A stretch of 44,821 nt of DNA from an uncultured Aquabacterium sp. (GTDB lineage Bacteria; Pseudomonadota; Gammaproteobacteria; Burkholderiales; Burkholderiaceae_C), in assembly GCF_947366995.1 (NCBI RefSeq), contig NZ_CANBCC010000028.1, positions 1 through 44,821 on the forward strand, written 5' to 3'. Below are positions 12,303 to 44,821 of the stretch, piece after piece (position 1 is the stretch's first letter; the number at the start of each line of letters is the position of its first letter). A model generated the notes under the pieces. That model did not search any database. It had not been told where the DNA came from and saw only the letters and a list, made by a program, of their open reading frames with translations. Both the position numbers and the translations under genes were made by a program.

Positions 12303-12307
12303 CCGCA

Positions 12308-12562
12308 ACAGCCAGGAGAGAACCCCCTTGAGGGGTCGCCGAAGGCGCAGGGCGGTTTTGGTCGCCCGAACGCTCAGGCAAAAGGACTGGCAAGCATGGT
12401 CATGGCATGGCGCCCTGACCATGATCCTCACTGGAGAGAGTCGGGCCGTCGTCATCCCATATGACGTGCGCAGCCAGGCCACCGAAGGGGCAAGCCCGAA
12501 CCGCACCGGCCAGCCGGCGCGATGGGTCAATCTCTCAGGTAAAGCGGACAGGGAGGGCAGCA
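12308..12562 (+). promoter_or_regulatory. Tandem glycine riboswitch (gcvT leader)
   Basis: Two glycine-aptamer cores stand in series upstream of gcvT. Aptamer I (about 12310-12390) shows 'CAGGAGAGA', 'CGCCGAAGG' and 'GCTCAGGCAAAAGGAC'. Aptamer II (about 12429-12560) shows 'CTGGAGAGAGTC', 'CCACCGAAGGGGCAAG' and 'TCTCAGGTAAAGCGGACAGG'. These are the conserved boxes of the gcvT RNA element, which turns on glycine cleavage genes when glycine is abundant. No U-rich terminator lies between aptamer II and the gcvT ATG. A small hairpin (CCGGC/GCCGG, 12628-12644) ends 8 nt before the ATG, so translational control is more likely than termination; that point is inference. The 442-bp gap between dctM and gcvT is otherwise explained by the terminator and promoter listed separately. 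Confidence 0.93.
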
Positions 12563-42322: not shown

Positions 42323-43033
42323 TCAGACGTGGACCAGCGTGCCCTCGTCCTCGCCCAGCACCACGCGCTTGAGTGCGCCGGGTTTGAAGATCGAGAACAC
42401 CTTGAGCGGCAGATTCTGGTCGCGGCACAGCGCAAACGCCGTCGCGTCCAGCACCTGCAGATTCTTGATCAGCGCCTCGTCGAACGTGATCGTGCTGTAG
42501 CGGGTGGCAGACGGATCCTTTTTCGGATCGGCCGTGTAGACGCCATCGACCTTCGTGGCCTTCAGCATCACCTCGGCACCGATCTCGGCGCCACGCAGGG
42601 CAGCGGCCGTGTCGGTCGTGAAGAAGGGGTTGCCGGTTCCTGCAGCGAACACCACAACCTTGCCCTCTTCGAGGTATTGCAGTGCCTTGGGACGCACATA
42701 CGGCTCGACGACCTGGTCGATGCTGATGGCAGACATCACGCGGGCCGTCATGCCTTCCTGACGCATCGTGTCGGCGAGGGCCAGCGAGTTCATCACCGTG
42801 GCCAGCATGCCCATGTAGTCGGCGGTGGCGCGGTCCATGCCCACCGAACCGCCGGCCACGCCGCGGAAGATGTTGCCTCCGCCGATGACGACCGCCACCT
42901 GCGTACCCAGCGCAGTCACATCCTGGATTTCCTTGACCATGCGCACGATGGTCGCGCGGTTAATGCCATAGGCATCGTCGCCCATCAGGGCTTCACCGGA
43001 AAGTTTCAGGAGGATACGCTTGTAGGCGGCCAT
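42323..43033 (-). CDS. pyrH: Uridylate kinase
   Basis: A 236-residue hexameric UMP kinase of the amino-acid-kinase fold. The start '[15 protein letters not shown]' and '[11 protein letters not shown]' bind phosphates; '[20 protein letters not shown]' and '[14 protein letters not shown]' are family blocks. ATG 43033 gives the standard N-terminus. It follows tsf after a 195-bp gap that holds the tsf terminator, so it may have its own promoter there; none is clear. Confidence 0.98.
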
Positions 43034-43196
43034 GCAGTCGTCCTTGTGTTCTGTGCCAGGGCGCACAACCTGCCTGTTGCACCAGCAACCCGCCCGGACG
43101 TGCCCGAAGGCTTGGAGAAGGGGTAAGCGGATCAGGTTCCCCTTGGAAACCTCTCCGGCACCCGAGATCTTGTTCTGTTGATCAGAGATAGCACAA

Positions 43197-43228: not shown

Positions 43229-44125
43229 TTACTGGCCCTTGGCTGCGGCCATCGTCGCAGCAACTTCGGCGGCAAAGTCGTCTTGCTTCTTCTCGATGCC
43301 TTCGCCCACGACGAACATCGTGAAGCCCTTGACGGTGGTGTTGGCACCCTTGAGGTAGGCTTCCACGGTCTGCTTGCCGTCGGCGGCCTTCACGAAGACC
43401 TGGTTGAACAGCGAGACTTCCTTCAGGTACTTCTGCACAGCGCCTTCGATCATCTTGGCAGCAATGTCGGCGGGCTTGCCGGACTCGGCAGCCTTGGCGG
43501 TGGCGACATTGCGCTCGGTCTCGATCAGGTTGGCGGGCACATCGGCAGCCGACAAGGACACCGGCTTCATGGCGGCGATGTGCATCGCGACGTCCTTGGC
43601 AGCCACGTCTTCGCCGTCGAACTCGACGACCACACCGATGCGGGCGCCGTGCAGGTAGGCGGCCAGCTTGCCACCGTCAGCGTAGCGCTTGAAGCGGCGG
43701 ATCGACATGTTCTCGCCGATCTTGCCGATGAGGCCCTTGCGCACTTCTTCCACGGTCGGGCCGAAGCCGTCTTGCGACAGCGGCAGCTCGCCCAGGGCAG
43801 CCACGTCGGCCGGGTTGTGTTGCGCAATCAACTCTGCGACCGACTTGGCGAACGCCAGGAACGAGTCATTCTTCGACACGAAATCGGTTTCGCAGTTGAT
43901 TTCGACCAGGGCGCCGGTGGTGCCGTTCACGGCGGCGGCGACAACGCCTTCGGCGGTCACGCGCGAAGCGGCCTTCGAAGCCTTGCTGCCAAGCTTGACG
44001 CGCAGGATTTCTTCTGCCTTGGCCATGTCGCCGTCGGCTTCGGTCAGCGCCTTCTTGCACTCCATCATCGGGGCATCGGTCTTGGCGCGCAGTTCGGCGA
44101 CCATGCTGGCGGTGATTGCGGGCAT
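43229..44125 (-). CDS. tsf: Elongation factor Ts
   Basis: A 298-residue nucleotide-exchange factor for EF-Tu. The N-terminal UBA-like part '[20 protein letters not shown]' and the core '[18 protein letters not shown]' are diagnostic. ATG 44125 is preceded by GGAGA; in-frame codons to 44158 are upstream of this RBS. A strong terminator lies between rpsB and tsf, which would reduce tsf relative to rpsB. Confidence 0.98.
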
Positions 44126-44183
44126 ATTGTTCTCCGTTGAGTTGGGGCGCGGCGTCACGGCCGCGTCACATCAGAATCTGTTG

Positions 44184-44230: not shown

Positions 44231-44780
44231 TCAGGCGGCTTCGTTGACTTCCACGAATTCGTCGTCGCCAGCGGCAGCGGCCACGACTTCGTTCACGGCG
44301 TTGGCCTTGCCTTCGAGGATGGCGTCGGCCACGGCGCGGGCGTACAGGGCCACAGCCTTGGACGAGTCGTCGTTACCCGGGATGACGTAGTCGATGCCTT
44401 CGGGCGAGTGGTTGGTGTCCACCACGCCGATGACGGGAATGCCCAGCTTCTTGGCTTCGGCGATGGCAATCTTGTGATAGCCAACGTCGATCACGAACAG
44501 GGCGTCCGGCAGCGCGGTCATGTCCTGGATGCCGCCGATGTCCTTTTCGAGCTTGGCCAGGTCGCGCTGGAACAGCAGGCCTTCCTTCTTCTTCAGGTTG
44601 TCCAGGCCGGCTTCGACCTGAACTTGCATGTCCTTCAGCTTCTTCAGCGAGCCCTTGACCGTCTTGAAGTTGGTCAGCATGCCGCCCAGCCAACGCTGGT
44701 TCACGAAGGGCACGCCAGCGCGGCTTGCTTCTTCGGCGACGGTGTCACGGGCCTGACGCTTGGTGCCGATCATCATCACG
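44231..44780 (-). CDS. rpsB: 30S ribosomal protein S2, N-terminus missing at the contig edge
   Basis: The 182 visible C-terminal residues of S2, from '[20 protein letters not shown]' through '[20 protein letters not shown]' to '[20 protein letters not shown]' and an acidic tail. Roughly 65-70 N-terminal residues are absent compared with the family. The loss is not biological: bases after 44780 are sequencing adapter, so the first true codon is GTG at 44777-44779, inside the gene. Any start codon assigned further right translates adapter. A terminator follows the stop before tsf. Confidence 0.95.
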
Positions 44781-44821
44781 GATCGGAAGAGCACACGTCT
44801 GAACTCCAGTCACCGGATAAC
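44781..44821. other. Illumina TruSeq adapter and probable index (assembly contamination)
   Basis: The 33 bases 44781-44813 begin GATCGGAAGAGCA and end CTCCAGTCAC, matching the TruSeq i7-side adapter throughout. The next 8 bases, CGGATAAC, sit exactly where the sample index lies, and the contig then ends. The usual A before GATCGG is absent (G at 44780). This is not genomic sequence. Confidence 0.97.

Follow-up and report, generated by a model that had tools for sequence, protein, structure and literature searches.

As described in the FCS-GX paper (PMC10898089), new sequence submissions to NCBI are screened with VecScreen and megaBLAST, and adaptors are placed among the common contaminants. 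Two other reports describe chimeric joins in metagenome assembly (PMC10978663, PMC7111523), which are rare in the experience of the authors of the latter. The PhiX control is described as a contaminant of isolate genomes, and adapters are named as one further source in that report (PMC4511556). The locus described here combines two such faults. The end of one contig is an ordinary sequencing artifact, and the gene cut there, rpsB, is affected by a second fault on another contig, which is chimeric.

The window, which is the whole stretch of 44,821 nucleotides that was analyzed, is contig C28 of a draft assembly (G000) with 127 contigs and 4,016,241 bases. The end of the window is almost certainly (probability of about 0.99) read-through sequencing adapter that was left untrimmed before assembly. 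Positions 44781–44813, read on the forward strand, are identical at 33 of 33 bases to the Illumina TruSeq Read 2 adapter. Allowing up to three mismatches gives no further match in the window, and the adapter was matched in none of 100 shuffles. The opposite end of the window is free of adapter, the longest adapter prefix there being a single base. The next eight bases on the same strand (44814–44821) are CGGATAAC, the i7 sample index, and run to the last base. The window stops after the index, and P7 is thus not visible in the window itself; the positions of P5, P7 and the index bases are those of this adapter design. The G at 44781 fits the adapter, but most relatives have a G there too, and the boundary between adapter and genome is therefore certain only to within one base.

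The assembly contains many tails of the same type. The first 12 bases of the adapter are found at 25 places on 24 contigs, the window included, and all 25 are located at contig ends, while the reversed pattern, used as a control, is found at none. Eight of the ends are Read 2-type, 15 are Read 1-type, and two are shorter. The latter (contigs C51 and C53) have just 13 and 12 adapter bases, respectively, and escaped the longer search patterns. Contig C69 has adapter on both ends. The 24 ends other than that of the window (L003) are among L001–L023, L183 and L184. The most common tail length is 46 bases (7 of 25), and the longest tail has 53.

The seven other Read 2-type ends share the adapter of the window, one of them (on C16) with a mismatch. 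Five carry CGGATAAC in full, which with the window makes six of the eight ends of this type that have a complete index. One contig ends after the first seven bases (CGGATAA), and C16 shows only the first base, a single C. The motif ATCTC, the start of P7, follows the index at four of the seven (four of eight with the window). Among the Read 1-type ends, CGTTCGGC is complete at 12 and partial at one, and two end earlier; at 11 of the 15 the tail continues as expected for at least the three bases GTG. Wherever the tails reach the index there is one i7 and one i5-side index throughout the assembly, and the longer tails add flow-cell sequence. The initial annotation had noted, from the letters of the window, a 33-base stretch identical to the TruSeq adapter followed by an 8-base index-like tail. 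The first holds with exact coordinates, and the second is borne out by the five other ends with the same full index.

The adapter interrupts a conserved gene. The last part of the window carries, on the minus strand, pyrH for UMP kinase (42323–43066, TIGR02075, 329.3 bits), tsf for elongation factor Ts (43229–44158, TIGR00116, 284.9 bits), both given as context with the coordinates of mechanical open reading frames, and the 3′ part of rpsB for 30S ribosomal protein S2 (44231–44779). The rpsB fragment is genuine from codon 66 on, and the contig end deprives it of its 5′ part. It matches TIGR01011 over profile positions 64–224 of 225 with 214.1 bits. Since this is above the cut-off of that model (76.3 bits), automatic annotation would be expected to label the fragment as S2. 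Elsewhere in the window, on the plus strand at 12303–12561, there are two adjacent glycine riboswitch aptamers (Rfam RF00504), with scores of 57.7 and 50.2 bits.

The minus-strand mechanical frame of rpsB begins at a GTG at 44794, within the adapter. The spurious start (44780–44794, minus strand) places M-L-F-R-S ahead of S2, the last base of the serine codon (44780) being genomic, and the chimeric product (V/M-L-F-R-S and then S2 sequence) has 187 residues. In the closest relative (G013), base 44780 corresponds to nucleotide 195 of rpsB, and the true start lies 194 bases past the junction. In the numbering of the G013 protein, MLFRS replaces residues 1–65 of S2, and the native N-terminus is absent from the C28 frame. 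More generally, the longest frame over the junction at each of the 25 ends has at least four adapter-coded residues; these frames are mechanical, were cut at about 500 codons, and in GC-rich DNA are often not genes. For the window, this junction-crossing frame lies on the plus strand and is not that of rpsB. Adapter-coded residues can pass for the ends of proteins under automatic annotation. A literature search on adapter-coded peptides gave no match in the literature library searched.

The gene continues beyond the junction in related genomes. The rpsB part of the window was searched against 41 genomes (its own and 40 of the genus), and 39 of them matched, one with only a short and weak match. 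The 29 relatives that matched best and yielded loci were aligned, and in all of them ordinary rpsB is found over the 45 bases shown past the junction. The local alignment enters the adapter by one base in 25 of these relatives, where the adapter G equals the genomic base, and ends four or five bases short of the junction in the other four. Homology reaches further than one base into the adapter in none of the 29. The initial annotation had held that the contig edge is no biological boundary and that translation through it fuses a false MLFRS to S2. The continuation of rpsB in 29 of 29 relatives supports the former, and the minus-strand frame that starts at 44794 confirms the latter.

The base that precedes the adapter was also compared. 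With A-tailed ligation an A is expected between the insert and the adapter, which is usual and not obligatory. An A is present at 24 of the 25 ends of the assembly, compared to an A share of 17.5% among the bases of the window. The sole exception is the end of the window itself, with a G at 44780, the same base as in 27 of the 29 aligned relatives. The A may have been misread, may have been lost when the consensus was corrected in favor of the genomic base, or may never have been attached in the first place. In other records, 124 matches were examined among those listed, of which 3 come from a Clostridia bin and the other 121 from 120 IMG/VR stretches, and the preceding base is A in 119, C in three, G in one and T in one.

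Adapter ends of this kind are uncommon in the phylum sample. The 33-mer is found in one of its 398 genomes, that of the window. Among viral contigs they are not rare, with the 33-mer in at least 120 IMG/VR stretches. In 123 of the 124 matches examined among those listed (including the three of the Clostridia bin), the 33-mer is no more than 213 bases away from where the stretch ends, and not every stretch extends to the end of its contig. The one exception is the match in an IMG/VR contig (L075, 3890–3922), where 1,257 bases separate the 33-mer from the stretch end.

Besides G000, a single bin in the genome collection has the 41-mer that includes CGGATAAC, in a search from which records of the own genome may be excluded. 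This bin is an uncultured Clostridia from run SRR15322615, with the 41-mer at three places (L028–L030). It also has 12 Read 1-type places (L197–L208), with CGTTCGGC in full at eight and in part at one; the other three end earlier. The commonest tail length is 46–47 bases in both bins (8 of 25 and 4 of 12). The shared index bases hint at a shared library, and the chances are about even that the two bins, with the same i7 and i5-side index, come from one metagenome library, in which case the tails on public bins would be a trace leading to one run. In kits with fixed index pairs the same pair recurs, and a match of the i5 index adds little to that of i7. The Clostridia bin may therefore come from the same library, or may have no more than the kit well in common with this genome. 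A literature search on the run number and the index strings gave neither the run number nor an evident link to this library among the matches listed.

A search of the assembly with PF00318 finds two places, on C28 (profile positions 58–216) and on C122 (positions 1–209 of 216). Contig C122 has 3,323 bases. Upstream of rpsB and into this gene it matches G013 at 92%, and it carries the native 5′ start of rpsB together with the upstream gene, joined to an rpsB like that of another genus. In 50-base steps from nucleotide 128 of the gene, its identity is 66–90% to G013 versus 84–100% to G299, a genome of genus g85 and the best match other than the own genome (399 genomes of the family were searched, and 391 matched). 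With C122 1–525 alone as the query, identity is 90–93% to all five g85 genomes and 75–81% to 37 of the 40 congeners, with no match in the other three. The true donor may be a genus outside the sample, rather than g85.

The position of the switch was located with 80 diagnostic sites, at which three congeners (L032, L033 and L034) agree, four g85 loci (L186–L189) agree, and the two groups differ. Up to nucleotide 10 of rpsB, all seven sites on C122 are of the native type. From nucleotide 126 on there are 73 sites, of which 63 are g85-like, three are native-like and seven are neither. The change from native to foreign sequence (L061) is located between nucleotides 11 and 125, which corresponds to C122 526–640, 115 bases without a diagnostic site. 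The counterpart of base 44780 on C122 is position 456 (nucleotide 195 of rpsB). When the G013 stretch covering nucleotides 126–194 was searched in the assembly, no contig matched besides the foreign copy on C122. The native rpsB is whole on neither of the two contigs that carry this gene. We read C122 as an assembly join within sequence that two organisms in the same sample have in common. A true recombination event is less likely, as the native 3′ part of rpsB exists on C28.

Two other explanations were weighed. The 41 bases do stand in the deposited contig and might be genuine genomic DNA that equals the adapter by chance, but the probability of this is negligible. The 33-base match is perfect and has no equivalent among the shuffles, the adapter start occurs at 25 places in 4.0 Mb and every time at a contig end, the 41 bases are absent from the corresponding place in all 29 relatives, and none of the other 397 genomes sampled from the phylum contains the 33-mer. 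A genomic origin was rejected on these grounds. Alternatively, the genome could have two real rpsB genes, with the C122 copy being a product of recombination or acquisition and only the end of C28 being an artifact. The C122 copy has an open S2 frame of 251 residues that covers nearly the whole of the PF00318 profile, and its DNA identity to the copy in the window is about 80%. Against this, C122 resembles G013 over the upstream gene and the start of rpsB and turns g85-like within 115 bases, its first 525 bases are closer to all five g85 genomes than to the best of the 40 congeners (81%), and each of the two copies is missing one end at a contig edge. We consider two real genes to be very improbable.

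Untrimmed adapter is directly supported by the identity of the adapter and index, the similar tails at 24 other ends, and the relatives in which rpsB continues past the junction; no observation speaks against an artifact. An insert too short for the read length would have ended within rpsB, and sequencing would have proceeded beyond it through the Read 2 adapter to the i7 index. The short-read assembler probably retained this tail as the last stretch of the contig, where a well-supported genomic continuation was lacking. The genome itself is probably a metagenome bin, and rpsB sequence common to a second organism in the sample may have tangled the assembly here. Such a tangle would account for both the break of C28 and the switch from native to foreign sequence in C122.

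For users of this genome, the observations amount to a fault of data quality. The last 41 bases of the window do not belong to the genome, no trust should be placed in the start of S2 at 44794, and 24 more contig ends bear adapter. C122 is best handled as a chimera, and marker-gene phylogenies should leave out the rpsB of this genome.

Compared to untrimmed TruSeq adapter in other draft assemblies, the tails described here show no difference in kind, with adapter and index at contig ends. On the other hand, many of them reach the index and some reach flow-cell sequence, and they carry the mark of the library. The PhiX contamination is similar in that DNA of the sequencing process remains in public genomes; PhiX, however, is mostly present there as whole scaffolds (PMC4511556), whereas the present tails are short and attached to genuine contigs. 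Like other chimeric metagenome contigs, C122 is a fusion, here of two genera within a single conserved gene. It is an ordinary example of such a join, though one that holds the missing start of the gene that the adapter cuts.
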